NCBI GenBank assembly: GCA_937919825.1
Contig: CALFPA010000123.1
Coordinates: 1 to 61,000 of the forward strand
Length of the DNA: 61,000 nt
Source: an uncultured Spartobacteria bacterium
GTDB lineage: Bacteria; Verrucomicrobiota; Verrucomicrobiia; Chthoniobacterales; Terrimicrobiaceae
Direction: 5' to 3'
The position numbers and the translations under genes were made by a program. Positions 10,312 through 28,693 of this stretch are shown here, in pieces. Position 1 is the stretch's first letter, and every line of letters begins with the position of its first letter. The notes under the pieces are model-generated. The model saw only the letters and a program-made list of their open reading frames with translations, did not search any database and was not told the DNA's origin.

Positions 10312-11246
10312 GTTTTCGTTCCTGGCATGCCTCTCAAAGATTCATGCAGGCTGGAATCGTGTTTGGAGGGAGGGCGCCAGAAAAAACGCTGCAAGGGAGC
10401 GCAAAAAAGCGTGCAAGCTGTGATACGCGCTTTTTGCCTGGAGCCTACCACGACTCGCCCGCTCCAGTAGTCGCACTCTCGGCGGCGCAGACGGGAGCCA
10501 ATGGCTCGATAAACGCGAGCCGCAACCAGGATTCCAGCCCTGGCTCGAAGTGGAAGGTATGCGATGCCGCATTCCCCGCTGGCGTAGTAGCGATCGGCCA
10601 GGTCGAGGAGTTGCGAAACAGAACGCCACAAAAGAGGACGGAGATTTTCTCCGGGCAGGAGCAACTGAGGCGGCTCGATATCACCAAGGATCGTCGTGGG
10701 AAGATAACGGCGGTTCATGCCGGCATCCTCGGCGATGTCGCGACAAATATTGGTGAGTTGCATGGCAATGCCGAGGTCCATGGCATGGGGATAGGCGAGC
10801 GGGTCGTGAACATCCAGCACACCGCACATCATGATGCCCACGGTGCCGGCCACCCGATAGGAGTAGCGCAGAAGAGCGGCTTCGTCCGGGGTGCGAACAA
10901 GATCAAGATCCGAAAGGAGTCCCTGGATAAGTTCGAGAATGATTTCCGGGGAAATTCGACATTCGTGCATGAGGTCGATTCCGTCGCGGAGAGCGGGATC
11001 CGAGGTGACACCTGTTCGGATGGCATTGCTCGTTGAGAGAAGATTATCACGCGCAGATTCGGGTGATGATGACTCGTCTGCGAGGTCATCGAGGTGGCGG
11101 CAGAGAGCGTAGAGCCGAGTCGCTCTTGAGGCATGCGTCTCCCCGAGAAAATGGCGTGCCCAATAAAAACTTCGTCCATTTGCAGCCAGGGTTTCCTCTG
11201 CGCTGGACGAGACGGTTAAAGAGGGAGAAAGCGTGCCCGAGTTCAC
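10308..11246 (-). CDS. crtB: Phytoene synthase
   Basis: CrtB condenses two geranylgeranyl diphosphates into phytoene. The first Asp-rich motif is HLDDLADE. The second is within QLTNICRDIAEDAGMNRRYLP, both normal for squalene/phytoene synthases. I place the start at the GTG whose first bases overlap the crtI stop as GTGA (11243-11246), giving 312 residues. This matches the 4-base overlaps at the next two junctions. An ATG at 11294 is also in frame and would add 16 residues inside the crtI 3' end. Confidence 0.93.
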   Translation of the reverse strand: MNSGTLSPSLTVSSSAEETLAANGRSFYWARHFLGETHASRATRLYALCRHLDDLADESSSPESARDNLLSTSNAIRTGVTSDPALRDGIDLMHECRISPEIILELIQGLLSDLDLVRTPDEAALLRYSYRVAGTVGIMMCGVLDVHDPLAYPHAMDLGIAMQLTNICRDIAEDAGMNRRYLPTTILGDIEPPQLLLPGENLRPLLWRSVSQLLDLADRYYASGECGIAYLPLRARAGILVAARVYRAIGSRLRRRECDYWSGRVVVGSRQKARITACTLFCAPLQRFFWRPPSKHDSSLHESLRGMPGTKT

Positions 11247-12718
11247 AAATGGGCGGGCGTTGGGATTAATGTATCGAGCACTTTTGCCGAACAAATGACA
11301 CCGGGCAATCCCGCCCCCGGGTGCGTTCCTGCGCCCGCTAAAAAAAGGTTTTTAATTCCTTCGGCCCGGTTGTGAAAACGGAACCATGCAGATTGCCTGA
11401 ACAAAGGCGCCACAGAGAAGCCGGCGCCATGGACACTGAGGTAATCGCCTTTGAAATCCTCGGGTGTTTTAAAAAAATCCGCCGTGATACATGTGGAAAG
11501 GCTCGGCAGAATGGAGCCTTCAAGCGCCGCAACAATGCGGTCTCGAAGTCGCGGGCCCTCGACATCCCAATCAATACGGGCCTGAAGATTGGGAACTGGG
11601 CATAGCACATAAAAACTATCGCACCCCGGGGGGGCAAACGACGAATCCGTGGCCGTTGGGCGATGCAGGTAGAGCGAAAAATCCTCGGCCAGCTTCTTGT
11701 GGTGGAAGATGTCCTCGAGGAGTTCGCGATATCGGGGCCCCATCCAGATCGTGTGATGGGCTACCTCGGGATATGTCCTCGTCGTTCCAAAGTAGAGGAC
11801 GAAAAGCCCCATGGAGTAATGGGCGGCTGCAAGCTTCAGGCGCGCGGAGACCGCCTGCTCCTGGGGCGAAATCATGTGGCTGTAGAGATGGGCCGCATCG
11901 GCATTGGAAACAACCACATCCGCGCGAAGAACCTCCCCATCGGCCAGAACCGCCCCCTTGGCGACTCCGTCTTCGATGTGGACCGCGCGAACGGTTGTGT
12001 TGAGTTTGATCTGAATTCCCTGCCGCTCCATGAGAGCTCCGAGTGCCTGTGTGATCGCTCCTGTGCCACCCATGGCAAAGTGGACGCCGTGTGCGCGCTC
12101 AAGAAAGTGAATCAGGCCGTAGATACTTGTCGTGTCGAAGGGATTGCCGCCAACAAGCAGAGGTTGAATGGAGAAGGCTTGCCGAAGCTTTTCGCTCTTG
12201 AGATGACGCGACACCATTTGCCAAACGGTTTCATAATTTCGCAGACCAATCAGCGCGGGAACTTGCCGCATCATGGTCAGGAATGCATCAAACGGTTGTG
12301 CTGAAAGTTTGGTAAACCCGATTTCGTAAATCCGCTGGGAATGGGCGAGTAGCGCTCGATAGCCGTCGCAGTCGCGTGGCTCAATGCGGGCAATCTCCTG
12401 AAGGGTTTCTTCCAAAGTGCCTCCGTAGTCGAAGTGATCGCCGTCGGAAAAATGAAACCGATACCATGGCTTCAGAGGAACAAGATCAACATGGTCGGAA
12501 AAGCTCTCGCCAAAAAGGGCGAAGAGTTCCTCAAACAAAAATGGAGCGGTAATAACTGTTGGGCCGGCGTCGTGGCGGAAGCCACCTTTTTCAAAAACCT
12601 GCCCGCGGCCGCCCAAGGCTGAGCATCGATCAACAAGTGTGACCTGATATCCTTTGGCTCGAAGACGCAGGGCAGAGGCAATTCCCCCGAAGCCAGCTCC
12701 TATGACGAGGGCGTTCAT
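11243..12718 (-). CDS. crtI: Phytoene desaturase (lycopene-forming CrtI)
   Basis: CrtI is an FAD-dependent desaturase that converts phytoene to lycopene in four steps. The N-terminal Rossmann motif is VIGAGFGGIASALRLRAKG (about residues 5-23), ending in the LGGRG signature. A C-terminal motif, NLFLAGAGTHPGAGLPGV (about 460-477), is the bacterial CrtI signature. Its length of 491 residues is normal. It lies 15 bases after crtE and overlaps crtB. Confidence 0.95.
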   Translation of the reverse strand: MNALVIGAGFGGIASALRLRAKGYQVTLVDRCSALGGRGQVFEKGGFRHDAGPTVITAPFLFEELFALFGESFSDHVDLVPLKPWYRFHFSDGDHFDYGGTLEETLQEIARIEPRDCDGYRALLAHSQRIYEIGFTKLSAQPFDAFLTMMRQVPALIGLRNYETVWQMVSRHLKSEKLRQAFSIQPLLVGGNPFDTTSIYGLIHFLERAHGVHFAMGGTGAITQALGALMERQGIQIKLNTTVRAVHIEDGVAKGAVLADGEVLRADVVVSNADAAHLYSHMISPQEQAVSARLKLAAAHYSMGLFVLYFGTTRTYPEVAHHTIWMGPRYRELLEDIFHHKKLAEDFSLYLHRPTATDSSFAPPGCDSFYVLCPVPNLQARIDWDVEGPRLRDRIVAALEGSILPSLSTCITADFFKTPEDFKGDYLSVHGAGFSVAPLFRQSAWFRFHNRAEGIKNLFLAGAGTHPGAGLPGVICSAKVLDTLIPTPAHL

Positions 12719-12733
12719 GGGAGAGAGAGTCTT

Positions 12734-13633
12734 TTAGAAGCGTTGGCAAAGCGCCAGCGCAAGATTCTTTAAAAACAGGCCGGATCCATTGGGCAAGCGC
12801 TCGGCAATCTCCATGGTATTCTTCAGATGACCCAGAGCCATTTCGCGAGCAACAGTAAGGGAATTCCTGCCATGTCCGGCCGCTTGCAAAACCAGGAGAG
12901 CATTCACGGCTCGTGGTCCGCCGTCGCCTGCGGCGTCACTTTCTACATCCGCAATGTCATCCATCACTTGGTAGCTCAAACCGAATCCCTCGGCAGCTTC
13001 ACGCACTTCACCAAGCCATGCTTCTTTGCCAGCGAGTAGGAAAGCCATCTCCAGGGGAAGACTCAACAAGGCTCCGGATTTTGCGAGAGCCATTTTCTCA
13101 TAAAAAGCCATGCTCTCAACCTGGTGACCTCTCGTCGAAAGTTCGATGCATTGCCCACAGATGACCCTCACGGTGCGTTGGTGGACTAATGAGAGAAGTT
13201 TGGGTAAAAGTTGCAAATTGCTGATTTCCGAAAGTGCTGCATACGCTGCGGATAAGAGTAAATCGCCAGTGCAAACAGCCACCTCATCTCCATAGGCGGC
13301 CCAGACAGAAGGTTGTCCGCGTCGCGTTTTTTCGCGGTCGTGAAGGTCGTCGTGAACCAGAGATGCGTTGTGGAGCAGTTCAACAGCCGCAGAGATTGCC
13401 ATGGCATCGCGGGATTCCAGTCCCAGTGCTGTGCCCGCATCAAAGGCCATTCGGGCTCTGACCCTGTGTCCACCTGAGGAAATAACCTCCAATGCAGCAG
13501 AAACTGGACCACCCGGGAAGCCGGGGCCGCTTTCATCACCACGCACGAGTTGCAACATCAACTCGTTCAAATCCTCTAAAAAGTCGCTCGGGGACTTGGT
13601 TGCTGAAATAGAACCAACGGCGTGTGAAGTCAT
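12734..13633 (-). CDS. crtE: Geranylgeranyl diphosphate synthase
   Basis: CrtE is a trans-prenyl synthase that builds C20 GGPP for the carotenoid pathway. The first aspartate-rich motif is DDLHD within HNASLVHDDLHDREKTRRG (about residues 92-110). The second is DDIAD (about 215). Its 299-residue length is typical. It is the first biosynthetic gene after the rhodopsin and is separated from it by 145 bases that hold two hairpins. The crtI start follows 15 bases after its stop. Confidence 0.93.
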   Translation of the reverse strand: MTSHAVGSISATKSPSDFLEDLNELMLQLVRGDESGPGFPGGPVSAALEVISSGGHRVRARMAFDAGTALGLESRDAMAISAAVELLHNASLVHDDLHDREKTRRGQPSVWAAYGDEVAVCTGDLLLSAAYAALSEISNLQLLPKLLSLVHQRTVRVICGQCIELSTRGHQVESMAFYEKMALAKSGALLSLPLEMAFLLAGKEAWLGEVREAAEGFGLSYQVMDDIADVESDAAGDGGPRAVNALLVLQAAGHGRNSLTVAREMALGHLKNTMEIAERLPNGSGLFLKNLALALCQRF

Positions 13634-13665
13634 AATATGAACCTACAGCTCCGAGTTGTGAGAGA

Positions 13666-13756
13666 CATCTGCGACTGTTGAAATCGCAGATGCACTCGCA
13701 GATTTTTCTAAGGGGAGAACTTCGACGCTCTGGAGGAGAATCTCCCCCCCAGAGCG
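13666..13756 (-). promoter_or_regulatory. Two hairpins between rhodopsin and crtE
   Basis: First hairpin: CATCTGCGA (13666-13674), 9-nt loop, TCGCAGATG (13684-13692), a perfect 9-bp stem. Second: CGCTCTGG (13726-13733) and CCAGAGCG (13749-13756) with an inner GGAG/CTCC extension. Reading the minus-strand transcript, the second lies 22 bases after the rhodopsin stop. Neither is followed by a U-run. They could lower read-through from the opsin gene into the pathway genes or protect the opsin mRNA 3' end. Confidence 0.55.
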
Positions 13757-13778
13757 GTTGAAGTTTCTTGAGACGGCG

Positions 13779-14585
13779 TTAGCTGGCCTTTGCGCTATTT
13801 TTATCTGATTCGCTGACTGCAGCAGTCCAGATAATCACGCCGAAGGCGATTTTGTTCACAACATCGGCCAAGTTGTAGGTCACATTCAGCAAGACCATGC
13901 TGTCTTTGGGAGAACCCCCGGTGAGGTAGCCCAAGAAATACCCGATTGGATAAATAGCCCAACCGACCACCACGATCCAGCGCATGAGGTTGAAGGCGAC
14001 CTGCACGGATGGAGGCGCGGAATCCGCGTTGATTTTTCCAGCTTCGCCGGCGAAAATTTCCCAGATGATGTAGAACCATCCGAGCATTCCGATGGCAAAA
14101 CCGACCCAGACATTGAGTTTCCCGGCTTCACCGAGATAACCGCCAATCAGCATCACGAGCGTGCCAATCATCAATCTCCAAAAAACTCCACTCGGGACTT
14201 TGGTAATCGCTGAAAGGATGAGGTAGAACTCAACCATCAGCAATGGGACAGTAATAATCCAGTCGATGTAACGGAAGACTGTGGGACTGTCGCCTGTGCT
14301 CACCCAAACATCACGCATGTAGAAGTAGTGGGACGCAGCCACAAGTGTGACGAGTCCGGATACTGTCAAGGATGTCTTCCACTTGGCGGAAACACGCTGG
14401 ATTTCTAAAAAGAAAAATGCGGTTGCTGCCACGAGCGCCATTGAAATCATCCAGAAGGATACGCCAACGAGGTCGTCAGCCTTGAGGTCACCGCTTGAAG
14501 CGGCAAACACATCAGAAGGTAGCGCCAACGCCATGAATCCAAACAAGGATGCTGTTGATATTATTCTACGGGGTTTTGTGCTCAT
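13779..14585 (-). CDS. Proteorhodopsin-type light-driven proton pump
   Basis: This is a 268-residue type-1 rhodopsin with a signal-like N-terminus (to about residue 29) and seven membrane helices. The retinal Schiff-base lysine is K245 (in NLADVVNKIAFG). The proton acceptor is D108 with its partner H86. T112 and the proton donor E119 complete the D-T-E motif of outward proton pumps. D241 is the second counterion. L116 is at the spectral-tuning position (proteorhodopsin residue 105), where Leu indicates green absorption. Whole segments closely match marine gamma-proteobacterial proteorhodopsin. Base composition is about 50% GC in lines I counted, lower than most neighbours, which suits acquisition by transfer. 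Confidence 0.95.
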   Translation of the reverse strand: MSTKPRRIISTASLFGFMALALPSDVFAASSGDLKADDLVGVSFWMISMALVAATAFFFLEIQRVSAKWKTSLTVSGLVTLVAASHYFYMRDVWVSTGDSPTVFRYIDWIITVPLLMVEFYLILSAITKVPSGVFWRLMIGTLVMLIGGYLGEAGKLNVWVGFAIGMLGWFYIIWEIFAGEAGKINADSAPPSVQVAFNLMRWIVVVGWAIYPIGYFLGYLTGGSPKDSMVLLNVTYNLADVVNKIAFGVIIWTAAVSESDKNSAKAS

Positions 14586-16790: not shown

Positions 16791-17624
16791 TTACAAACCG
16801 GCGAGGGCGGCTTTGGCGGCGGCGGATTTTTCCGCATACCACTTGTCAAACTCGGCCTGAGGAAGGATGCGGATTTTGGCCTTCATGTTGTAGTGGCCGG
16901 TGCCGCAAAGCTGACTGCAGGCGAGTTCTAGATCCGCGGGGCGAGTGGCGTTGAATTGCACCCACTTGATCGTGCGGCCTGGGACGCAATCCTGATACAG
17001 GCGGAACGATGGGACATAGAAGGAATGAATGACATCTCGGCTGCGGAGGAGAACATGCACGGTCTTGCCGAAGGGAATCACTAACTCGGTGGCAGTGAAG
17101 TCGTCCTTGGCGGCGGGGTCGTTCTGGTTCACGCCGAATTTATTATCCATCGTGAAAAGATTGGCCGCGCAGTCGCCGAGCTTGCCGTCGGCTCCGGCGT
17201 AACGGAAATCCCACCCGAATTGGTAGGAAACGATGTCCACTGTCACGGCATCGGCGGGAACAGGCGCTTGGGTGAGTTCGTTCCACACGCGGTTGCCCCA
17301 GATCGCCAGGGTTAGGAAGATCGCGGTTGGAATAATCGTCCACCAAAATTCGAGGGTGTTGTTGCCGTGGCTGTAGTGGGCCTTGTGGCCGGGGCGGCGG
17401 CGGTATTTGATGAGATAAATAATGTAAACGCCCTGTGTGGCAACGAAGACAACGAGGGTGAGCCAGAAGATGAAATTCAGGATGCCGTCGATTTTTTCAC
17501 CGCCGACGGTGATGTTTTCGGGAGCCCAGTAGAGATTGTCCACGCGTTGCTCGGCTTGGGCCCCGGGAGCGGCAAAGCCGAGGAGCAGGAGGCAAAGGGA
17601 AATGATTCGGAGAAGTAGGCTCAT
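16791..17624 (-). CDS. coxB: Cytochrome c oxidase subunit II (CuA)
   Basis: CoxB carries the dinuclear CuA centre that takes electrons from cytochrome c. An N-terminal signal (to AQA, about residue 24) is followed by two membrane helices and a periplasmic cupredoxin domain. All CuA ligands are visible: His in VIHSF, then CSQLC, GH and NM within ELACSQLCGTGHYNM. Gln replaces the usual Glu, which binds only through its backbone carbonyl. I use the ATG at 17624. A TTG at 17636 overlapping the upstream stop is the alternative. It is the last operon gene, and no coxA follows. Confidence 0.93.
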   Translation of the reverse strand: MSLLLRIISLCLLLLGFAAPGAQAEQRVDNLYWAPENITVGGEKIDGILNFIFWLTLVVFVATQGVYIIYLIKYRRRPGHKAHYSHGNNTLEFWWTIIPTAIFLTLAIWGNRVWNELTQAPVPADAVTVDIVSYQFGWDFRYAGADGKLGDCAANLFTMDNKFGVNQNDPAAKDDFTATELVIPFGKTVHVLLRSRDVIHSFYVPSFRLYQDCVPGRTIKWVQFNATRPADLELACSQLCGTGHYNMKAKIRILPQAEFDKWYAEKSAAAKAALAGL

Positions 17625-17632
17625 GGCAAAGG

Positions 17633-18349
17633 TCAAGCGGCTGGAGGCGCTGCGGGAGCGGGATTAGCCGGGGCGGCGGGGGCGGCGGCTCCGCCAGCGG
17701 AGATTGTTTCGGCCGGGATGGCTTTGAGGTCTTTCTGGGTCCAAGGTTCTTTGCGTTCCGTCGATACGGCGCGGACTTTGGCTACGAATTCCTCGGTGAT
17801 GGCGGGAGCGGTGTTGCCCCACTCGCTGCGGATGTAGGTGAGGATGCCAGCAATCTCGCTGTCTTTGAGCTGAGCCCACGGCGGCATGGCATTGTTGTAG
17901 CTCTGGCCTTTGACTTGGACCGGACCTTGCATTCCGGCGAGCAAGATTTTCACGAGGTGGTTGTCACCCACCCAGTCACCGCCGACGACCCATTCGCTGG
18001 CGACGAGCGGCGGGAATTGTCCAGCGACACCCATTCCGCTGCCTTGGTGGCAAACGGCACAATTTTGGGTGAAAAGACGCTTGCCGATGACTTTCGGATC
18101 GGGCGGAGCGGCAGGGCCAGCAGCGGCACCGGTGATTTCGGGATTGTAGACATCGGGTTTGAAGCCACCGCTGTTGCTGGCGAGGTGAAATCCACCCCAG
18201 AAAACGAGAATTCCGGCGAAAATCACGAGCCAGAACGGGAGCGGGGAGCTTTTCTCGGTGGGCTCGGAGGCTTCACGCAGAACGGGAGCGGAAACCTCGG
18301 GTGCGGGGGTTTCGCTCTGCTTGTGCGGGTCGTTCGAAGGCGTGTTCAC
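17633..18349 (-). CDS. Membrane-anchored monoheme cytochrome c (CcoP-like)
   Basis: The GTG start gives 238 residues: a charged cytoplasmic N-terminus (1-35), one membrane helix (about 38-57), then a class I cytochrome c domain. That domain has one heme motif, CAVCH (about residue 97), and the distal Met in NNAMPPWAQL. An Ala/Pro-rich tail ends the protein. The topology and GMGVAGQFPPLVASEWV resemble CcoP/FixP cytochromes, but only one heme is present instead of two. It probably relays electrons from alternative complex III or the CcoO-like protein towards CuA. Confidence 0.85.
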   Translation of the reverse strand: MNTPSNDPHKQSETPAPEVSAPVLREASEPTEKSSPLPFWLVIFAGILVFWGGFHLASNSGGFKPDVYNPEITGAAAGPAAPPDPKVIGKRLFTQNCAVCHQGSGMGVAGQFPPLVASEWVVGGDWVGDNHLVKILLAGMQGPVQVKGQSYNNAMPPWAQLKDSEIAGILTYIRSEWGNTAPAITEEFVAKVRAVSTERKEPWTQKDLKAIPAETISAGGAAAPAAPANPAPAAPPAA

Positions 18350-18355
18350 GGTGGT

Positions 18356-18988
18356 TTACTTGGCGGTTGCGACCGGGGATTCCGGCAGCGGGTAGCTTTG
18401 GTTCAAGGATAGAAGGTAGGCGACAAGGGCCTTGGCCTTCTCGGTCGGCACAACTTCGTATCCGGGCTTCGGCGCGCAGGGGCCAGTCAGTCCGGTGACG
18501 GCTTCATTCGAGGGTTGCCCTTGGATTTTCACGACATTGTAGAGGAAACAATACGACGGCATGTTCGACCACGGATTCACCGAACGCGGCTCGTAGAGGT
18601 GGCGGTGAATGGCGTTGATGTCTTCGCCAGCGCGGGCTCCGTAATTCGAGAGGTCTTGGCCGACGCGGAGTATGCCGGGAAAGGCGGTTTTTTCGCGGAG
18701 GTAATCGCGGGCGACGGTCTGGCGCTTGCCGAGTTCCTTGTCGATATCGGTGGTGAGAGGGGCAAAACGGACTTGCTGGGAGTGGCACTCCACGCAACCG
18801 TTGGCGGCGTAGACCTTATGACCAGCGACAGCGAGGCCAGAGACGGTGGGCGGAAGCACGCCGCCGGTGGCTTCATCAGGCACGGGCTGGAGGTTTCCGA
18901 GATTTTTCAGCGGATAGTTGACGAGTCCGAGCCAAGCGGAGCCAAAGATCACGAAGATGCCTACGAAAATATTAGGGAGTTTGTTCAT
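18356..18988 (-). CDS. CcoO-like monoheme cytochrome c
   Basis: This 210-residue protein has one N-terminal membrane helix and a heme motif CVECH in AANGCVECHSQQVRFAP (about residue 67). That context is characteristic of CcoO/FixO, subunit II of cbb3 oxidases. The possible heme Met is in NPWSNMPSY. Its ATG overlaps the CcoN-like stop as ATGA. In a true cbb3 enzyme CcoO docks on CcoN. Here its CcoN partner lacks heme ligands, so the cytochrome may be kept as part of the alternative complex III electron path. Confidence 0.85.
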   Translation of the reverse strand: MNKLPNIFVGIFVIFGSAWLGLVNYPLKNLGNLQPVPDEATGGVLPPTVSGLAVAGHKVYAANGCVECHSQQVRFAPLTTDIDKELGKRQTVARDYLREKTAFPGILRVGQDLSNYGARAGEDINAIHRHLYEPRSVNPWSNMPSYCFLYNVVKIQGQPSNEAVTGLTGPCAPKPGYEVVPTEKAKALVAYLLSLNQSYPLPESPVATAK

Positions 18989-20442
18989 ACCGCAACGGGC
19001 TCCTGGGAATTTTCCTCACGCTCTGCCATGAAGGCCGGGGCTTGGTTTTTATGGGTTTCGAGCAGGATGCCGATGAGAAGCAGGGCGAAGTTCACAGCCG
19101 ATGCCAAAATGAGCAGGCTGCCCAACATGGCGAAGACGCGGAACGGCCAAGCGAACTCAACCGAGCTACGGAAGGTGATGATCGTCTGGCTGAGAGCTGA
19201 CCCTTGGATCAAGCCACCCAGAATCAATCCTGAGACGATGAAACCAAATCCTGTGACTGCGAGCCAGTAGTGAAGCGAAATGAATTTGGCGCAGGGCCAT
19301 TCGTGGCCGGTCAGGCGCGGGACGATGTAGTAAATCGCGCCGAAGGCCGTCATGGCAAAGAAGCCGAAGTGGCCGAGATAGTAGAGGGCCCGGTTGATGT
19401 CCGAGAATTGCGTCATTGCGTTGACTCCGGGGATGGAATTGATCGCAACGAGAATCCAGTAGGTCACAAGGCATCCGATGCCCGTGACGATGAAACGAAG
19501 AGCCGGGCTCCAAGCGACCGGAGCGTAGTGTCCATCGAGAGTGAGGTGGAAGTTCAACCCGAGCGCGAGGGCTGGAACGATCATCATGATGCTAGCTGCC
19601 ACGCCGGCGCTGGTGATCCATGCCGGGACGGGGCCGCCGATGATTTGCGCTCCACCGGTCCAAGCTCCGAAGAGGAGAAGGGTCCAGAATCCCAAGAGGC
19701 TCAAGTTGCTGCTGGCGACAGGAAGCCCGGTGGACTTGGGAATGATGTAAAACGCGGCGGCGAGTCCGACGGGGACCAGCCAGAGGTTGAAGAATCCGCT
19801 GGAAAACCAGAGCGCGATGGCGGGTTGGGCCGGGGCGGAGACGGGGTTCCACACGAGGAGCGCGTTGGCCGTTCCGAAGAGCCATGGGAAGGCCAGGACT
19901 GCTGCGAAAACAAACCAAGCAGAGACAAACAGGCCGCCGGATTTGCGCTCGTTGAAGGTGAAGAGAACCCAGATCGCGATGAGCGCGTAGGAGACGAAGA
20001 GGATCGGGGTGGCAAAAGCCGGGAAGGAGAGAAGCGCGAACGATGTGCTGTTTCCAGCGAGAATCGAGCAGGCTCCGACGAGAATGCCGAGATTCCAAAC
20101 GATCCCGGCGCTGACAAGCATCCGGTGGTGGGAGAGCGGGACTTTGCAAAGGCGGGCGGTGAGCCAAACCGCGATGCCGATGGCGGCGGGAGTGGCGAAG
20201 CCGTAGGCCATGACGGTGGTGGCTGTTTGCACCACGCGTCCGTAGGTCAGAAAACTGATTCCATCGAGGAAACAGGGGTAGGAGAGTTGGATCGCGCCGA
20301 TGACATCGAAGAGCGAGGCGAATACGAGCCAGAACGCGGATGAGCCGAAGAACAAGAGAGCCGCTCCGCTGGTCGAGGAGTCGATCTGCGCGCGCTCGGC
20401 GGCGGTCAAGATATCCGGCTGATTGGACAAATCGTTGCTCAT
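18985..20442 (-). CDS. CcoN-like (cbb3 subunit I) membrane protein lacking all heme and copper ligands
   Basis: This 485-residue protein has about 12 membrane helices. Its helix-to-helix similarity to CcoN is clear (AFYIIPK, FGAIYYIVPRLTG, SLHYWLAVTGFGFIVSGLILGG). None of the six expected histidines is at its place. The CuB HH pair is A265-Q266 (GAWTGGAQIIGG). The CuB His of the WYGHN motif is S215. The heme b3/b pair of the GHVHSG motif is L353 and Y355. No His occurs in helix II (residues 61-95). It therefore cannot reduce oxygen as CcoN does and may serve as a structural scaffold between alternative complex III, the cytochromes and an oxidase. The alignment was made by eye. Confidence 0.85.
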   Translation of the reverse strand: MSNDLSNQPDILTAAERAQIDSSTSGAALLFFGSSAFWLVFASLFDVIGAIQLSYPCFLDGISFLTYGRVVQTATTVMAYGFATPAAIGIAVWLTARLCKVPLSHHRMLVSAGIVWNLGILVGACSILAGNSTSFALLSFPAFATPILFVSYALIAIWVLFTFNERKSGGLFVSAWFVFAAVLAFPWLFGTANALLVWNPVSAPAQPAIALWFSSGFFNLWLVPVGLAAAFYIIPKSTGLPVASSNLSLLGFWTLLLFGAWTGGAQIIGGPVPAWITSAGVAASIMMIVPALALGLNFHLTLDGHYAPVAWSPALRFIVTGIGCLVTYWILVAINSIPGVNAMTQFSDINRALYYLGHFGFFAMTAFGAIYYIVPRLTGHEWPCAKFISLHYWLAVTGFGFIVSGLILGGLIQGSALSQTIITFRSSVEFAWPFRVFAMLGSLLILASAVNFALLLIGILLETHKNQAPAFMAEREENSQEPVAV

Positions 20443-20939
20443 TGTTGCGTTTTGGATTTTTTGGTTTTGCCGGATTTGGCTTCGCTTTTATCAACCGGAG
20501 CGGCGAGGGCGTTGGCTCCAGCGTCTTTATCTTGCCCCTCGGGCAGGGCGTCCGAGGCGTCCGCACCGGCAGGCGTTGCGAGGCGGGTTGGAGGCACGGG
20601 TTGGCCGGTGTTGTCCACAACGGGGTAGGCGGGGGCTGGCTTGGTGGCGTTCAACTTCGCAAGCACAAGAGTCATGGCTTGGTTGAGAGGAATTTGGACG
20701 CTGCCCTTGGCTTGGTCCACCCAACCATAGGAATTCAGTTTCTTTTCGTTCTCGGCTTGGAGATCAGCGAGGTTTTTTACGCGTTCGACATCGCGGGCGG
20801 GATCCTCGGGATCGGTCGTGGCGGCGGTTCCTCCACGGAAGAAATTCGTTGCCAGCAGGAACAGGGCAATGAGGCCGATGCCCAGGATGAAAAACCAGGC
20901 GCCGGATTTTTTCGGAGCGTTGTGAGAGTCGGTGTGCAT
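20439..20939 (-). CDS. Single-helix membrane protein of the ACIII operon
   Basis: This 166-residue protein has one membrane helix (about residues 14-34) and a conserved-looking YGWVDQAKGSVQIPLNQAM stretch (about 71-89). I recall that stretch from small proteins accompanying alternative complex III or oxidase genes. A Pro/Ala/Lys-rich tail follows. It overlaps actF upstream by one base and the CcoN-like gene downstream by four (ATGA). It is probably a small structural subunit. No cofactor motif is visible. Confidence 0.75.
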   Translation of the reverse strand: MHTDSHNAPKKSGAWFFILGIGLIALFLLATNFFRGGTAATTDPEDPARDVERVKNLADLQAENEKKLNSYGWVDQAKGSVQIPLNQAMTLVLAKLNATKPAPAYPVVDNTGQPVPPTRLATPAGADASDALPEGQDKDAGANALAAPVDKSEAKSGKTKKSKTQQ

Positions 20940-22138
20940 CAGTTCTTCAAGGCAATCGATTTCTTGAGGCGCGGGTCACGCAGCGGCCAGAGCGGGGCGT
21001 CGCCGAGGCGTTTCAGGAAAACTGCGGCGAGGGTGCAGCCGATGGCGATGAGGCAGGCGATATCCAGCCAACTGATCGCCACGCCGGCTTTGTGCAGGGC
21101 AGGGAGCACCACGACATAGATATCGAGGAGGTGCATGGACAAAATCCAGAGCGCCATACCGCAAAGGAAAGCCGGGCTTTTCTTGCCGAAATTGAACAGC
21201 AAGAGGACGAAAGGAACAAAGAAGTGTCCGACGACAAGGGCCGTGCTCAGGATTTGCCAAGTCTCGGTGTTGCGGCGGAGGAAGTAGATCGTCTCCTCCG
21301 GGATGTTCGCATACCAGATGAGCATGTATTGGCTGAAGCCGATGTAGGCCCAGAAGATCGTGAAGGCCAGCATGAGCTTGCCCATGATGTGGTAATGCTC
21401 AAGCGAGATGACATTCTGGAAGTAACCGGCATTGCGCAGGGCGGTGATGATAAGCACCAGCACGCACATGCTGCTCAGGGCTGTTCCGGCGAAAATGTAG
21501 ACACCCCACATGGTGGAGAACCAGTGGTAGTCCAGACCCATGAGCCAATCGATCGCGGCAAAGGTGAGGGAAATGGCGAACAGAGGAAGGCTGGCGAAGG
21601 TGATCTTGCGGTTGATCAGGGTGTAACGGGCCGCACCGGTGGTGTCTTGGTGGATCGAGTTCGCCCGGAGCCAAGTGGCGGCGATGCCGAAGAAGGCGAA
21701 ATAGAAGGCCGCGCGGATCCAAAAGAATTCCTTCGTCAGGTAAGGCCATTTCGCATCGAGGAGAATATCTTGGCCTGGGAGCTTGGTCATCCAATACCAC
21801 AGCTTCGGAGCCACAAAAATGAGCGGGATGAACAAAACGCCCATCACAATCAACAGGCTGGCAATGTTTTCCATCTGACGACGGACCACGACACTCCACT
21901 CGGCATCCACGGCGTGGTGGACGAGGGTCCAGAACAGCCCGCCCATGCAGATCGTGAGGAAAAAGGTGAACGCGAAGAGGTAGGAGAAGGCGAATTGCTT
22001 CGTGTCGGTAACAGCTCCGAAGCCCACGGCGGCGAATGCCACAATGGCCAATGCGACGAGGCCGAGGAAACGACCGCCGACATGCTTGTAATCAAACATG
22101 TGGCTGCCGGGTTGGGATGGTTCGTGGCTGCTGCTCAT
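20939..22138 (-). CDS. actF: Alternative complex III subunit ActF
   Basis: This 399-residue integral membrane protein has about ten helices and is homologous to the quinone-site subunits of alternative complex III. Recognisable segments are FGKKSPAFLCGMALWILSMH and GFSQYMLIWYANIPEET, both typical of ActF. It works with ActC in quinol oxidation on the periplasmic side. Its start overlaps the actE stop as ATGA. Confidence 0.9.
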   Translation of the reverse strand: MSSSHEPSQPGSHMFDYKHVGGRFLGLVALAIVAFAAVGFGAVTDTKQFAFSYLFAFTFFLTICMGGLFWTLVHHAVDAEWSVVVRRQMENIASLLIVMGVLFIPLIFVAPKLWYWMTKLPGQDILLDAKWPYLTKEFFWIRAAFYFAFFGIAATWLRANSIHQDTTGAARYTLINRKITFASLPLFAISLTFAAIDWLMGLDYHWFSTMWGVYIFAGTALSSMCVLVLIITALRNAGYFQNVISLEHYHIMGKLMLAFTIFWAYIGFSQYMLIWYANIPEETIYFLRRNTETWQILSTALVVGHFFVPFVLLLFNFGKKSPAFLCGMALWILSMHLLDIYVVVLPALHKAGVAISWLDIACLIAIGCTLAAVFLKRLGDAPLWPLRDPRLKKSIALKN

Positions 22139-22833
22139 TGTTTCTGCGCTTCAAGTTGGGCCCGTTCGGCGGGCGGAACATCATTGATTGAGGCGCCGCC
22201 TTGCGAGAGTTGCAGCGCGCGGATGTAGGCGACGATCGCCCAGCGGTCCTGCACTTGGATGCGGTCGCCGTAGCCCATCATGGTATTTTTACCATGGGTG
22301 ATGGTGTTGAAAATCTCGCCGTCCGCCATGTCGCGGATGCGTTGTTGGTGGAGGTTCGCGATCGCGACGAGGCCGTATTTTCCAGCGATGCCATTGCCGG
22401 CGCCGGTGGCTCCATGGCAGACCGAGCAGGAGATAGTGTAGCGCTCTTGGCCGCGGGCGATGAGTTCGGGCGTGACCTCGCTCATCGGGAGGCCGGTGCC
22501 CCATTGGTTGTCGAAGCGGCCGGTATCGAAATAGGACACACCGCTGGAGAATTTCACTTGCGTGTAAGGGCTGGGCGACTCGCCGGTCGAGCCATTCACA
22601 TCCTTGTGCAGTGGCATCGCATAACCGAGAGGAACAGTTCCAGATACGGGCTCGCGGTTGCCACGGCCATCGGCGAAGAACTCGCTGGGCGATTGGGCTT
22701 TGACCTTTGGCTGGTGATCCATGTCCGGGAAAAGCTCGATCGGTGGCTTGTCGAATTTTTGGCCACGAAAGCCTGCGACTGTCACCACTAGGACGACCAC
22801 GAGAGCGAAAATGGAGAAGAAGTATTTAAGCAT
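22135..22833 (-). CDS. actE: Alternative complex III monoheme cytochrome c subunit ActE
   Basis: This 232-residue protein has an N-terminal anchor helix (4-21) and a cytochrome c domain with heme motif CSVCHG (about residue 136). The ACIII-typical segment FDKPPIELFPDMDHQPKVKAQ lies before the heme. ActE takes electrons from the ActA/ActB part of the complex and passes them to a soluble cytochrome or oxidase. It overlaps actF by four bases. Confidence 0.9.
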   Translation of the reverse strand: MLKYFFSIFALVVVLVVTVAGFRGQKFDKPPIELFPDMDHQPKVKAQSPSEFFADGRGNREPVSGTVPLGYAMPLHKDVNGSTGESPSPYTQVKFSSGVSYFDTGRFDNQWGTGLPMSEVTPELIARGQERYTISCSVCHGATGAGNGIAGKYGLVAIANLHQQRIRDMADGEIFNTITHGKNTMMGYGDRIQVQDRWAIVAYIRALQLSQGGASINDVPPAERAQLEAQKQ

Positions 22834-22839
22834 GCCCGA

Positions 22840-23400
22840 TTAGTCTCCGTGGATGGTGGTGATGTTGGTTCCGCCGAGGGATTCTAGAAAATCCTTCACC
22901 GAGCGGGTGGAGAATTTTGGGTCTTCGGACTCGATCGCGACGAAGAATTTATCCTCGGTGACTTTTTTGAAGCGCTCCCAATTGAAGAGTTGGTGGTTGA
23001 GGCGCGGCAGGCCGTTCATGATCAACATGCCAAAGACCGCCGTGAAGGCCGAAAGAAGAATGGTCAACTCGAACATCACCGGGAAAAAGGCCGGCACGGT
23101 GTAGAGGTTCGTCGGTTTGCCGGCGACGATGAGCGGATAAAGGAACGAGGAAGTTCCGAATTCCAAGCTCACAGCGGTCAAGAAGCCGGTGAGACCGCCA
23201 AAAAAGACGACTTTTCCAAGAATCGAACGCTTGAGGCCCATGGCTTCGTCCATTCCGTGAATCGGGAACGGGGAAAAGACATCCCATTTGGAGAATCCGG
23301 CTTCGCGGATTTTCTCAGCGGCATGGTAGAGGTCGCGTGCGGACTGAAATTCAGCTGCGATTCCGTAGACGGGTGCTGTGGTATTTCCAACGGCGTCCAT
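22840..23400 (-). CDS. actD: Alternative complex III subunit ActD (DUF3341)
   Basis: The 186-residue DUF3341 protein has two central membrane helices (about residues 63-85 and 110-132). Its N-terminal domain contains the ACIII motif DVFSPFPIHGMDEAMGL (about 40-56). ActD is a structural subunit without cofactors that sits against ActC. The stop lies 6 bases before actE. Confidence 0.92.
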   Translation of the reverse strand: MDAVGNTTAPVYGIAAEFQSARDLYHAAEKIREAGFSKWDVFSPFPIHGMDEAMGLKRSILGKVVFFGGLTGFLTAVSLEFGTSSFLYPLIVAGKPTNLYTVPAFFPVMFELTILLSAFTAVFGMLIMNGLPRLNHQLFNWERFKKVTEDKFFVAIESEDPKFSTRSVKDFLESLGGTNITTIHGD

Positions 23401-23401
23401 T

Positions 23402-24811
23402 TTAGTGAGCCTCCCCGTGGTGTGGGTCCGCTTCGGGCAGGACCGCTTTGACTTCGAACATACAAATCATCGGTAGGAATCGAATGAAAAGGAGGAAGAG
23501 GGTGGTGAACAAACCAAAGGTGCCGATGAAGGTGCAAACATCGACCCAGGTCGGGTGGAACATTCCCCAGGCGGACGGGGTGAAGTCGCGAGCGAGGGTC
23601 GTCGCGATGATGACGAAGCGCTCGAACCACATGCCGGCATTCGGGAATTGAACGATCACCCACACCCAGATCAGGTGCGTGCGGAAGTATTTGAACCAGA
23701 AAATTTGCGGGGCGACGACATTGCAGAACATCATCGACCAGTAGGCCCACCAGTAGGGACCGAAGGCGCGATACCAGAAGGCGGCTTTTTCGTAGGGGTT
23801 GGCGCCATACCATGCGATGAACAACTCCATCAGGTAGGCGTAACCGACAATGGAACCGGTGAGCAGGATGATTTTGCACATCTTGTCCACATGGTCGATC
23901 GTCACGAGGTCGTGCAGCGGTTTGTAAATCGCGCAAGCCGGAATCATGATGGTGAGCACCATCGCGAAACCACCGAAAATGGCGCCAGCGACAAAGTAAG
24001 GCGGGAAGATCGTGGTGTGCCAGCCGGGGATGACCGAGGTGGCGAAGTCAAAGGACACGACCGAGTGCACCGAAAGAACGAGCGGGGTGGAGAGGCCGGC
24101 CAAGATCAGGTAGGCCATCTCGTAGTGGCGCCATTGGCGGTTGCCGCCGCGCCAGCCGAGGGCGAGGACGCCATAGATGAATTTGCGGATTTTCGTGGTG
24201 CAACGATCGCGCAGGGTGGCGAGGTCGGGGATCAGACCGGTATACCAGAAGAGCACCGACACGGTGAAGTAGGTCGAGACCGCGAACACATCCCACAGGA
24301 GCGGGGAGCGGAAGTTTTGCCAGATCGCGTTGGCGTTTGGCACCGGGGCGAGGAACCACGCCATCCACACGCGGCCGACATGCAGCGCGGGGTAAATGCC
24401 GGCGCAGACCACGGCGAAAAGCGTCATCGCTTCGGCGGCGCGGTTGATCGAGGTGCGCCACTTCTGGCGGGTCAGGAAAAGAATTGCCGAAATGAGCGTG
24501 CCGGCGTGACCGATACCGATCCAGAACACGAAGTTCGTGATGTCCCATGCCCAGCCGATGGGGTGGTTATTTCCCCAAACGCCGACGCCTGTGGAGATGA
24601 GGTAACCTAACAGCGCCAAGCACATGAGCGTGAGCGGCACGGTGATGGCCATCGAGACATACCACCAGGTCGGAGTCTTGCCCTCGACGATCGAGCTGAT
24701 GTAATCGCTGATCCAGCCCATCGTGCGCTTGTTGAGCACGAGCGGTTGGCGGACGAGTTGTTTTTCGTCTTCCGTAAGGTGCTCGGGATGTTCGGCTGTG
24801 GCGTTGGACAT
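23402..24811 (-). CDS. actC: Alternative complex III subunit ActC (NrfD/PsrC-like)
   Basis: This 469-residue polytopic protein of the NrfD family has about ten helices and forms the quinol-binding membrane core next to ActB. Typical segments are [21 protein letters not shown] (quoted in part) and [20 protein letters not shown], a very conserved ActC region. It lies between actB (10-base gap) and actD (1-base gap). Confidence 0.94.
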
Positions 24812-24821
24812 TTCTTAAACC

Positions 24822-27800
24822 TTAGTGGGCGGCTGGAGCGGCGTGGGCATCGCCGTGGGGCGGTTGGGCGTTGTGGGAATCATGGGCGTCGTGGCCTTCG
24901 CCATGCGCGCCGTGGTGACCGGATCCATTGGCCATTCCGACCAAATCCGCACCAGGCATTTTGGGGTTTGGATTGCGGATGCGGGCGAGATACAGAACTC
25001 GCGGCGTGACATTGAGATACTTGAACATCTCGTAAGCGCGCTGGCTTTTGCGGGATTGGCTGACGGCGCTCTTCGGATCGGCGATGTTGCCGAAAATCAA
25101 CGAATCGTTCGGGCAAGCCTGTTGGCAGGCGACCTTGAAGGCGGCGATCGGCGTTTCGCTGGCGGGTGTCGGACCGGCTTCAACGAGGCGCGAGATTTTG
25201 GCCTCTTCGATGCGCTGGATGCAGAAAGTGCATTTTTCCATGACGCCGCGCATGCGCACGGTGACATTCGGGTTTTTCGCCATCTTGAGGCTGTCGGCCA
25301 TGCCTTTTTTGGCGAGCGGGCCCCAATAAAGTTCGTCGAGCGGGCGTTGGTTGTAATCGAAATAGTTGAAACGGCGAACTTTCCAAGGGCAGTTGTTCGC
25401 GCAGTAGCGGGTTCCGATGCAACGATTGTAGGCCATCAGGTTCAGGCCGTCTTCGCTGTGGACGGTGGCATTGACCGGGCAAACGGTTTCGCACGGGGCG
25501 TTTTCGCAATGCTGGCACATCACCGCCTGCGTGAGCATTTCCGGATCATTCGCCTCGCCGGCGAAGTAACGATCGAGACGGATCCAAGCCATATCGCGGT
25601 TTTTGCGGACTTGGTCCTTGCCGACGACAGGAACATTGTTCTCTGCCTGGCAGGCGACGACGCAGGCGTTGCAACCGGTGCAGGTGTTGAGATCCACCGT
25701 CATTCCCCACTGCTCTTTCGAGGTCAGCTCGGGGTGGGTGTAGAGCGAAATATTCGGCGGGATGTGACTATCCATGCCCATCGATTGGGCAAAGGCGTTG
25801 TCTTTGGAGTAACGCTCGATGGTGCCTTCGCGCACGAGGTCGCGGCCTTCCATGCTCTTGTGCTCTTGCGTTTGGGCGAGAGGATAATCGCGGTCGGTGA
25901 CTTTGCAGGTGACGCCGCCGACGGTGCGCATGCAGTTCGAGCGGCGGAGCGGATAGGCATCAAAACCAACGCCATCCATGAGCGCCGAGACTTCCTTGCG
26001 TCCGTAGCCGAGCGCGATCGAGAGCGAGTCGTCGGCATGGCCGGGAGCGACAATCGCGGCGGCTTCGATGGTGGTTTTGCCATCGGAAATTTCCACGATG
26101 TCGGCGAGGAGGTCGTAATTGACATCGTTCCCCATTTTTTCGGCGATGTCGCCGAGGACATTGAAATTGTTCGCCTTGATGCCGAGCTTTTTGGCGGTGG
26201 CGGGGCTAACGAGGATCGCATTGTCCCAAGTGACCTTGGTGACAAAATCCGGAGTCTCGAGGAGCCAGGAATTGTTCGCGTAGCGGCCGTCATCCACGCT
26301 GGAGCTTTGGAGGAAGACCAATTCCAAACCATCCGACTTGGTGACCGAGGTTTTGGCCAGAGCGGCGGCGGAGTCGGCATTGAGAGTGACTTGCACCGGA
26401 GCGAAGGCCGAATTTGGCTGGAAGCCATCGCGCAGGAAGGCGTTCCACGCGGCCGGGTCGGTGGTGTTGGCGACTTGCGTGAAGGTGGCTTGGACCAACG
26501 CCGGGCCGACCGGAGCGGGCGCGCCGTTGAGGGCGTTGAGAATCTCGAGTTCCGAACGACCACCCCAGAGCGGGAGGATCATCGGTTGAACGGAAGTGTA
26601 GGTACCGTCGAAAGTGCGAACATCGCCCCACGCTTCGAGGAAATGGGCAGCCGGAACATGCCAGCGGCAGGCCTTGGCGGTTTCGTCTTCGAATAAGCCG
26701 AGGTGAACGGTATCCGAAACTTTCTCCAAAAGTTTGGCGAATCCGAGTTCGGCCGGGGCATTGTGAGCGGGGTTGCCGCCGAGGATGAAGAGGGATTTGA
26801 CCTTGCCGGCCTCGATGGCCTTGGCGAGATCGCCGATGCTGGCCGAAGCGGGCGCATCGGTTTTTAACGCCGTGAGGGTCGCGCCGATATTTCCGAGGGC
26901 GCTGTTGATCGCGTTGACCAAAACCTGAATCGGCGCTGGCGTGAGCGGACCGGCGACGATAATCGAACGACTGCCGTTCTTGGCGAGGTCGGCCGCGCAT
27001 TCCTCGACCCACTTGGAATCGAAGGAGGCTTGCGAGGCTGGAACAGCATTGGCGACGGCGGCCAAACCGGCATTGCCCGAAGCTTTGGCGAGAGCCAAAC
27101 CGAGTTGACGGGCAAATTCTCCCATCTCCGAGACTTTCAACCGCAGGCGGTGATCGGCCATGCCGCCGGTGACCGTGTAGTGGTTCTCGACGACATACAG
27201 GCGGTTCATCGGCGCGCCCTTTTGGTCAGGGTTGCGGCGGGCGGCGAAGCCCTGCGCGTAGCCGATGCCGGTCTCGATGGGGTTCAGGAAATCACTATCA
27301 ATCGCGACAACGATGTCGGCGCGGCTGAAATTGGGAACGAGGCGGACATTCGGGCCGAACGAGGCGGCGGCGGCCTCTTCAGCGGGAGTTGCGGCGAGCG
27401 GATCGTATTCCGCCCAAAGCATATCGGGGAATTTTGTCGCCAAGGCCGCGCGAAGGCGGTTGCGAGTGGGCGAGCTTTGGGGTTCCGCCAAAATCGCGAG
27501 TCCCTTGCCATCACCGGCAGCGATCGAGCTAACAAACGCATCAAACGCAGCGGCGTCCGAGGCTTGGCCTTTTTCAGTGATTTCTTTCGAGCGGTGTGGA
27601 TCGTAAAGATTCAGGATTTCCGCCTGGGCGAACGAATCGGTTCCGCCGTTGGAGAAAGGATGGAGTGGGTTGCCCTCGAGTTTGGTCGGGCGTCCGTCGC
27701 TGGTCGTGGCGATCAATGGCACCGCACCGTAGCGGGCCGGCATGGAGGTCGCGTAGTAAAGGAACTTGCCGGGAATCGTGTATTCCACGCCCTTCGTGAA

Positions 27801-28043
27801 GGGGACGATGAACGAATCCGGGCGGCGGCAGCCTGTCAGACCGACACCGGCGAGCGCGATCGAGGCGCCCATGAGTTTGATGAAATCGCGCTTCGAGAGT
27901 CCGCTGTCCTGATAAAGATCAGCCCCGCGCGGAAATTCCTGCTCGAGATGCTTCTCAAACTGCGGGTCATTCTCCAACTCACGCAGGCTACGCCAAATGC
28001 GTGGGTTTTTTTCCGGTTTCGGGTGGTGGAAATTTCTCTTCAT
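24822..28043 (-). CDS. actB: Alternative complex III subunit ActB (molybdopterin-like plus iron-sulfur domains)
   Basis: This 1073-residue fusion joins a catalytically silent molybdopterin-oxidoreductase-like domain (about residues 60-740) to an NrfC-like ferredoxin domain. Cysteine sets lie at about 784 (CTGCNACVVAC), 843 (CQHCENAPCETVCP), 874 (CIGTRYCANNCP), 936 (CTFC) and 974 (CQQACP), enough for four clusters. The N-terminus has a Tat-like signal with K-R instead of R-R (LSKRDFIKLMGASIALAG) and a lipobox LTGC. The ATG at 28043 overlaps the actA stop as ATGA. Confidence 0.94.
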   Translation of the reverse strand: MKRNFHHPKPEKNPRIWRSLRELENDPQFEKHLEQEFPRGADLYQDSGLSKRDFIKLMGASIALAGVGLTGCRRPDSFIVPFTKGVEYTIPGKFLYYATSMPARYGAVPLIATTSDGRPTKLEGNPLHPFSNGGTDSFAQAEILNLYDPHRSKEITEKGQASDAAAFDAFVSSIAAGDGKGLAILAEPQSSPTRNRLRAALATKFPDMLWAEYDPLAATPAEEAAAASFGPNVRLVPNFSRADIVVAIDSDFLNPIETGIGYAQGFAARRNPDQKGAPMNRLYVVENHYTVTGGMADHRLRLKVSEMGEFARQLGLALAKASGNAGLAAVANAVPASQASFDSKWVEECAADLAKNGSRSIIVAGPLTPAPIQVLVNAINSALGNIGATLTALKTDAPASASIGDLAKAIEAGKVKSLFILGGNPAHNAPAELGFAKLLEKVSDTVHLGLFEDETAKACRWHVPAAHFLEAWGDVRTFDGTYTSVQPMILPLWGGRSELEILNALNGAPAPVGPALVQATFTQVANTTDPAAWNAFLRDGFQPNSAFAPVQVTLNADSAAALAKTSVTKSDGLELVFLQSSSVDDGRYANNSWLLETPDFVTKVTWDNAILVSPATAKKLGIKANNFNVLGDIAEKMGNDVNYDLLADIVEISDGKTTIEAAAIVAPGHADDSLSIALGYGRKEVSALMDGVGFDAYPLRRSNCMRTVGGVTCKVTDRDYPLAQTQEHKSMEGRDLVREGTIERYSKDNAFAQSMGMDSHIPPNISLYTHPELTSKEQWGMTVDLNTCTGCNACVVACQAENNVPVVGKDQVRKNRDMAWIRLDRYFAGEANDPEMLTQAVMCQHCENAPCETVCPVNATVHSEDGLNLMAYNRCIGTRYCANNCPWKVRRFNYFDYNQRPLDELYWGPLAKKGMADSLKMAKNPNVTVRMRGVMEKCTFCIQRIEEAKISRLVEAGPTPASETPIAAFKVACQQACPNDSLIFGNIADPKSAVSQSRKSQRAYEMFKYLNVTPRVLYLARIRNPNPKMPGADLVGMANGSGHHGAHGEGHDAHDSHNAQPPHGDAHAAPAAH

Positions 28044-28693
28044 CGATGGCAGCCTCCGCAGGTGACGGGCGGGTTCACTTCCCACTCCTCCTTGAACTTC
28101 ATGCCGATCTCGTGCTGGGCCTGAGCGCTGGCTGGTTTCCAGGCCATGTTGTAGACTTCCGACGGCGGGCGGAGGTGATTTTCAGGGGCGCGGTGGCAAT
28201 CCAAGCACCAGCTCATGCTTTGCGGCTCGTGCTGGTAAACGACCTTCATTTCGTTGATCGCGCCGTGGCAGCTATAGCAGCTGACGCCGCGGTTCACATG
28301 CACCGCGTGGTTGAAATAAGTGTAGTCGGGAACCTTGTGGATGCGGACCCAGTTCACGGGTTGGCCGGTCTTCCAGCTCTCGCGGACGGCTGCGAGTTTC
28401 GGGCTGTCGGCTTTGATTTGAGTGTGGCAGGACATGCAGGTCTGGGTGGTCGGCACATTCGAGTGCGAGGCGACCTCGACGAAACTGTGGCAATACCGGC
28501 AATCCATCCCGAGCTGCTGCACATGGATCACATGCGAGAAAGGCACCGGCTGGGTGGGCTCGTAGCCGACGCGGGTGTATTTGGGAGTGAAATAATAAGT
28601 AAGCCCTCCCACGATCACGGTGACGATCGCGCCCACGCAAATCACCAGCTTCAGCGGAAGCCAGTTGGTCCATTTAGGAAAAAAGTTCGCCAT
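28040..28693 (-). CDS. actA: Alternative complex III pentaheme cytochrome c ActA
   Basis: This 217-residue protein has one N-terminal membrane helix (about 14-33) and five CxxCH motifs: CRYCH, CMSCH, CYSCH, CLDCH and CGGCH, the last at the C-terminus. That is the usual ActA heme count and topology. It is the first gene of the operon and overlaps actB by four bases. It carries electrons within alternative complex III from the iron-sulfur clusters to ActE. Confidence 0.94.
   Translation of the reverse strand: MANFFPKWTNWLPLKLVICVGAIVTVIVGGLTYYFTPKYTRVGYEPTQPVPFSHVIHVQQLGMDCRYCHSFVEVASHSNVPTTQTCMSCHTQIKADSPKLAAVRESWKTGQPVNWVRIHKVPDYTYFNHAVHVNRGVSCYSCHGAINEMKVVYQHEPQSMSWCLDCHRAPENHLRPPSEVYNMAWKPASAQAQHEIGMKFKEEWEVNPPVTCGGCHR

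Follow-up and report, generated by a model that had tools for sequence, protein, structure and literature searches.

A CcoN-like subunit without haem and copper ligands, encoded between alternative complex III and aa3 oxidase genes in Verrucomicrobiae

The window analysed here, a 61,000-nucleotide stretch of DNA from an uncultured Spartobacteria bacterium, encodes a protein, termed N, that is modelled with the fold of CcoN, subunit I of cbb3 oxidases. As judged from sequence alignment, N lacks all six histidine ligands and the catalytic tyrosine of these enzymes. Ligand loss is a repeated derived state within a family of CcoN proteins linked to alternative complex III (ACIII), and ligandless N is under purifying selection and is not a decayed copy. 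The findings support the proposal, made in an earlier note on this DNA, that a heme-copper oxidase fold has been reused without its chemistry: the CcoN fold is kept, all ligands are gone and the copies are under selection. The six histidines of heme-copper oxidases are regarded as near-universal, and in genome annotation a ccoN-like gene is equated with high-affinity oxygen respiration. To our knowledge, no subunit I of a heme-copper oxidase has previously been assigned a separate, non-catalytic role, and we found no prior description of a ligandless ACIII-linked CcoN in the open-access literature. The ACIII-cbb3 gene neighbourhood was already known; the ligand loss is new as judged against the same literature.

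Results

The genes of interest lie on one strand in the order actA, actB, actC, actD, actE, actF, X, N, O, P, coxB (Table 1), with four-base overlaps at actE/actF, X/N, N/O and P/coxB. The cluster contains the components expected of ACIII, namely actABCDEF with a pentahaem ActA, ActD and an NrfD-like subunit, ActF being assigned by position only. X, which gave no family match in our family-model searches, separates actF from N in most clusters and is a possible linker akin to ActG or CcoQ. A retinal and rhodopsin cluster, recognised by Pfam matches, is located near the respiratory operon (positions 8246-14585, minus strand); it encodes a bacteriorhodopsin-like protein (13779-14585), a polyprenyl synthetase, a phytoene desaturase-like protein, a phytoene synthase, a lycopene cyclase and a beta-carotene dioxygenase.

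Table 1. Genes of the ACIII-N-O-P-coxB operon, with positions in the window.
Gene product	Position	Strand	Basis and remarks
CoxB, cytochrome c oxidase subunit II, CuA motif, no haem c	16791..17636	-	COX2 family model; 4-bp overlap with P
P, CcoP-like cytochrome c, single CxxCH	17633..18349	-	Cytochrom_C, Cytochrome_CBB3
O, CcoO/FixO-like monohaem cytochrome c	18356..18988	-	FixO 55 bits; CxxCH; 4-bp overlap with N (ATGA)
N, CcoN-like subunit, ligandless in alignment	18985..20442	-	485 aa; Pfam, 3mk7, alignment, AlphaFold
X, small, one apparent membrane helix	20439..20939	-	4-bp overlap with N; conserved position
ActF	20939..22138	-	position and size in act cluster; no Pfam match
ActE, monohaem cytochrome c	22135..22833	-	act cluster gene
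ActD	22840..23400	-	PF11821 ActD 207 bits
ActC, NrfD-like	23402..24811	-	PF03916
ActB, molybdopterin-like and FeS protein; start codon uncertain	24822..28085	-	Fer4, weak Molybdopterin matches
ActA, pentahaem cytochrome c	28040..28693	-	Cytochrome_C7; five CxxCH in most homologues

The reading frame of N is open over its 485 codons, with no internal stop. Residues 28-443 match the Pfam COX1 family (123 bits), and residues 36-449 match the sequence of Pseudomonas stutzeri CcoN (3mk7; E = 3e-25). The score against the ccoN equivalog model TIGR00780 is 119 bits, well below the cut-off of 583; ligand-complete relatives of N likewise fall below this cut-off, at about 255 bits. A single-chain AlphaFold model (AF2, run with 73 relatives) has a pLDDT of 93.3 and a pTM of 0.93 and features an intact heme-copper oxidase fold with 12 helices, nearest to CcoN. 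CcoN chains are also the best matches of the model among solved structures (3mk7: TM-score 0.86-0.90, Z 49.8, 443 residues). We therefore assign the modelled CcoN fold with confidence, in agreement with the earlier description of N as an in-frame protein that keeps its membrane helices and aligns along its length with cbb3 subunit I.

In a multiple alignment, the helix II histidine corresponds to A74, the helix VI CuB histidine to S215, the CuB His-His pair to A265-Q266, and the b3 and b histidines to L353 and Y355, respectively. Thus, none of the six histidines that ligate haem b, haem b3 and CuB is present at the aligned positions. The substitutions at 215, 265/266 and 353/355 had been read correctly from the sequence beforehand, as had the absence of a histidine from helix II; the replacement of the cross-link (active-site) tyrosine by G259 comes in addition. 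H358 and H391, which had been named as residues that might occupy the ligand sites, do not do so in this alignment, and the ligand loss stands. Neither qualifies as a replacement ligand: H358 is not conserved, and H391 is equally invariant in relatives that have all ligands.

A scan of contigs with the single N sequence matched only a sister MAG, and a profile search was used for the wider survey. The N-family profile has matches in 138 of 156 genomes of the order and, at a looser threshold that includes ordinary fused CcoNO, in 75 of 240 genomes sampled across the phylum. The genomes are mostly draft assemblies; closed genomes have the same N state. About 118 regions were retrieved for comparison. 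Almost every family member sits in an act-(X)-N-O-P cluster, frequently followed by coxB and coxA, and the order actABCDEF-X-N-O-P(-coxB-coxA) is conserved across Verrucomicrobiae, at the level of both order and class. Homologues thus regularly adjoin actABCDEF and CcoO- and CcoP-like genes, the setting in which the earlier note had proposed to look for them; its view of N as part of a coupled operon with these cytochromes is borne out by the conserved act-X-N-O-P order and by the ATGA overlap of N and O.

Among 107 copies in the act-N-O-P setting, all six histidines are kept in 28, five in 1, three in 1, two in 13, one in 31 and none in 33. By comparison, ordinary CcoN or CcoNO outgroups have the complete set in 11/11 cases. 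Whether ligand loss is conserved, as had been asked, therefore has a divided answer: the ligands are lost in many homologues, but loss is not a fixed trait of the family, given the 28 complete copies. The low-spin haem b pair alone (helix II His and last His) is kept in ten copies, mostly of family f8, in which the binuclear site is gone or almost gone. The f8 loci L063, L068-L074 and L077 have lost the CuB and haem b3 ligands and keep the two low-spin haem b histidines; this clade is a possible haem-b-only intermediate. At another locus (L046, G018:C100) there is one ligand change, from the helix VI CuB histidine to arginine, with the other ligands intact, possibly a first step of loss. Several loci of family f6 (e.g. 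L082, L085-L088, L092-L095, L099-L102) combine a ligand-deficient N with a second CcoP-like cytochrome gene after P, and at 12 loci one member of this pair has two CxxCH motifs.

We take the direction of change to be loss, because the outgroups are complete and regain of identical motifs is implausible. The tree built from ActB and ActC requires at least 15 changes between complete and lost states, or 13 if the single-His case and long rows are left out; if loss is assumed to be irreversible, there are 20 all-lost clades. A tree of N made without the ligand columns, which may be pulled by long branches, has a minimum of 6 changes; L116 and L067 branch from within groups of complete copies in this tree, with starred support. 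For the window's family, a tree of O and P gives 3 changes, with one loss in the genus to which the window belongs. The ActBC tree hints at several losses within that genus, but the O+P tree rejects the grouping on which this depends. For this reason the count is quoted as a range, from 6 on N to 15 on ActBC; about six would be the conservative reading of these trees, and the exact figure is unsettled.

Pairwise dN/dS values (Nei-Gojobori) for N in close ligandless pairs are 0.06-0.32, and 0.116 between the window and its sister; they are rough values, as dS is high in several pairs. They are comparable to the values for O, P and some act genes. Together with open reading frames in about 70 ligandless copies, these values uphold the earlier judgement that N is selected rather than decaying. 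The same note had reasoned that close homologues with intact ligands would mark this copy as a decayed gene: many homologues do keep the ligands, but the conclusion does not follow, as the ligandless pairs are under purifying selection. The evolutionary rate of ligandless N exceeds that of ActB and ActC, and constraint is therefore partly relaxed. Among the positions that are fixed in complete copies but free to vary in ligandless ones are all ligands, the tyrosine, R71 and R438; outgroup CcoN shows no variation at these two arginines. Thirty-eight positions remain conserved at ≥85% in ligandless copies. No newly conserved His, Cys or Met was seen in these copies, and the replacement residues at the ligand sites vary widely among homologues.

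The genome containing the window (99% complete) encodes two further COX1 proteins with normal ligand motifs. The coxB of the act-N-O-P operon is the only COX2 gene in this genome and in that of the sister (100% complete), and the search for a bd oxidase gave no match in these two genomes. A coxA-ctaA-ctaB-coxC-sco cluster without coxB is located on another contig; ctaA, ctaB, coxC and sco were named by reading translations rather than by family search. No subunit II was found for the second COX1 (contig C52, L002) of the window genome; it may be encoded outside this contig. In the set of 72 genomes that were checked, a ligand-deficient N is always accompanied by another COX1 (E < 1e-120). Genome G163 (1.7 Mb), which has a ligand-complete N (L111), contains no bd oxidase and no other heme-copper oxidase above the threshold of E = 1e-20, suggesting that the ligand-complete form is a working oxidase; L111 could represent a functional ACIII-cbb3 enzyme.

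Ligand loss appeared to be associated with an adjacent coxB gene in a raw Fisher test (p = 0.007), but there was no trend across 11 independent pairs with relatedness controlled, and the association is not upheld. In many Opitutus-like genomes the ligandless N has no adjoining cox genes, and some ligand-complete N do have them.

The partner cytochromes have kept their haem motifs. CxxCH is present in O in 107/107 homologues, and P in ligand-deficient loci has at least one CxxCH in 79/79 cases, with one motif in most copies. At lost loci, 53 of the 55 detected ActA copies carry five haem motifs; Cox2 from these loci has a CuA site in 52/54 and a haem c motif in 0/54. In the Flavobacterium johnsoniae supercomplex, a sixth ActA haem has been proposed as the route of electrons into the oxidase (PMC8552683), and in the Rhodothermus marinus supercomplex this role has been proposed for the haem of oxidase subunit IIc (PMC5928083). 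With five haem motifs in ActA and none in Cox2, lost-N loci have no counterpart of the bridging haem c known from the two structurally studied ACIII-oxidase supercomplexes. O and P could stand in for it.

The co-location of ACIII with a cbb3 oxidase in Methylacidiphilum has been read as fitting a high oxygen affinity (PMC6688271), and a review lists the pairing of ACIII with a C-type oxidase only in verrucomicrobial methanotrophs and Opitutaceae (PMC8498564). The ACIII-adjacent N of Methylacidiphilum strains Kam1 (G309) and SolV (G202) has S, E, S, S, H, F and V at the seven sites, so that one of six histidines is kept. These genomes contain four and three pmoA-like genes, respectively, and no other CcoN-like protein above 30 bits. 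Going by its residues, the ACIII-adjacent subunit of Kam1 and SolV should not reduce oxygen. Methylacidiphilum-type loci (L136, L159-L161) have 1/6 histidines, with coxA after P and coxB a few kb further on. The N of genome G258 (L127), which we take to be Opitutus terrae PB90-1, also keeps 1/6 histidines, and this genome carries a true CcoNO in addition.

Discussion

N is probably a CcoN without catalytic function, whose role would be to keep two monohaem cytochromes, O and P, in place between ACIII and an aa3 oxidase. The ancestral assembly would have been an ACIII-linked cbb3-type oxidase in which N was catalytic, O and P were haem c carriers and electrons from menaquinol arrived via ACIII. 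In many lineages, oxygen reduction would have passed to another heme-copper oxidase; N would subsequently have lost CuB and haem b3, and in most cases haem b as well, and would have been retained because ACIII, O and P were built around it. In the window organism, electrons would travel from menaquinol through the cofactors of ActB and ActA, and perhaps ActE, to the haem c of O and/or of P, which N would hold in place, and from there to CuA of CoxB and on to CoxA (aa3). We infer a physical supercomplex, this electron route and an N that binds neither haem nor copper; gene coupling and the haem inventory suggest that N physically joins ACIII to the oxidase. The link to aa3 is argued for the window lineage and not for the whole family, because the association of ligand loss with coxB is not significant once relatedness is controlled. 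The broader reading, that a heme-copper oxidase subunit I has been turned, repeatedly and independently, into a cofactor-free dock wiring ACIII to another oxidase via cbb3-derived cytochromes, has in our estimation somewhat better than an even chance of being correct.

A less probable alternative is that N is a passive anchor for O and P only, or a platform for ACIII assembly, and that O and P donate electrons to soluble carriers. The many Opitutus-like genomes with a ligandless N and no neighbouring cox genes would fit this explanation, as would the failure of ligand loss to follow coxB adjacency and the universal conservation of the haem motif of O. In the window lineage, however, translational coupling ties coxB to P, and no other COX2 is present, which favours a docked aa3 oxidase there.

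It is improbable that N is still redox-active or conducting, be it through a haem bound by non-His ligands or as an ion or quinone channel. The intact 12-helix fold of the AlphaFold model is compatible with such a role, and in one clade the retained ligands are precisely the low-spin haem b histidine pair, with R71 and R438 also in place; a haem-b-only state is likely for this clade on the strength of these residues. In the window and in most lost forms, however, R71 and R438 have been lost with the ligands, and no new potential ligand has become conserved. That N is a decaying relic carried in an essential operon is very improbable: its faster evolution relative to ActB and ActC and the varied residues at the ligand sites are outweighed by the low dN/dS, the open frames of about 70 retained ligandless copies, the 38 conserved positions and the presence of N in closed genomes of distant families.

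If N is indeed a non-catalytic CcoN, the chemistry of this fold has been lost repeatedly within one bacterial class while its partners have kept theirs. The natural series of complete, haem-b-only and ligandless forms would provide a model for how an enzyme becomes a structural part. The published link between ACIII-linked cbb3 and the high oxygen affinity of Methylacidiphilum is put in question, and can be tested in cultured strains.

Compared with CcoN of a cbb3 oxidase (3mk7), N has the same fold and a colinear sequence, and its operon likewise provides CcoO- and CcoP-like partners. N differs in lacking all six histidines and the tyrosine at the aligned sites, and in scoring far below the ccoN cut-off. 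Canonical CcoP has two haems, whereas P has one haem motif, and the placement of N behind actABCDEF also sets the operon apart from a canonical cbb3 operon. The supercomplexes of F. johnsoniae (aa3) and R. marinus (caa3) resemble the window locus in that ACIII genes are coupled to those of a heme-copper oxidase, and direct electron transfer has been proposed for both. At the window locus, in contrast, an N-O-P module is inserted between the two, and the extra haem c of ActA or IIc is absent; unlike in the structurally studied supercomplexes, association of ACIII with the oxidase is suggested here by gene coupling and the sole coxB. The closest parallel is the ACIII-adjacent 'cbb3 oxidase' of Methylacidiphilum and Opitutaceae (PMC8498564, PMC6688271), which is encoded in the same act-N-O-P gene arrangement, to which the window also belongs. 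The Methylacidiphilum enzyme has been published as a functional, high-affinity oxidase, whereas its N subunit in Kam1 and SolV retains a single ligand histidine.
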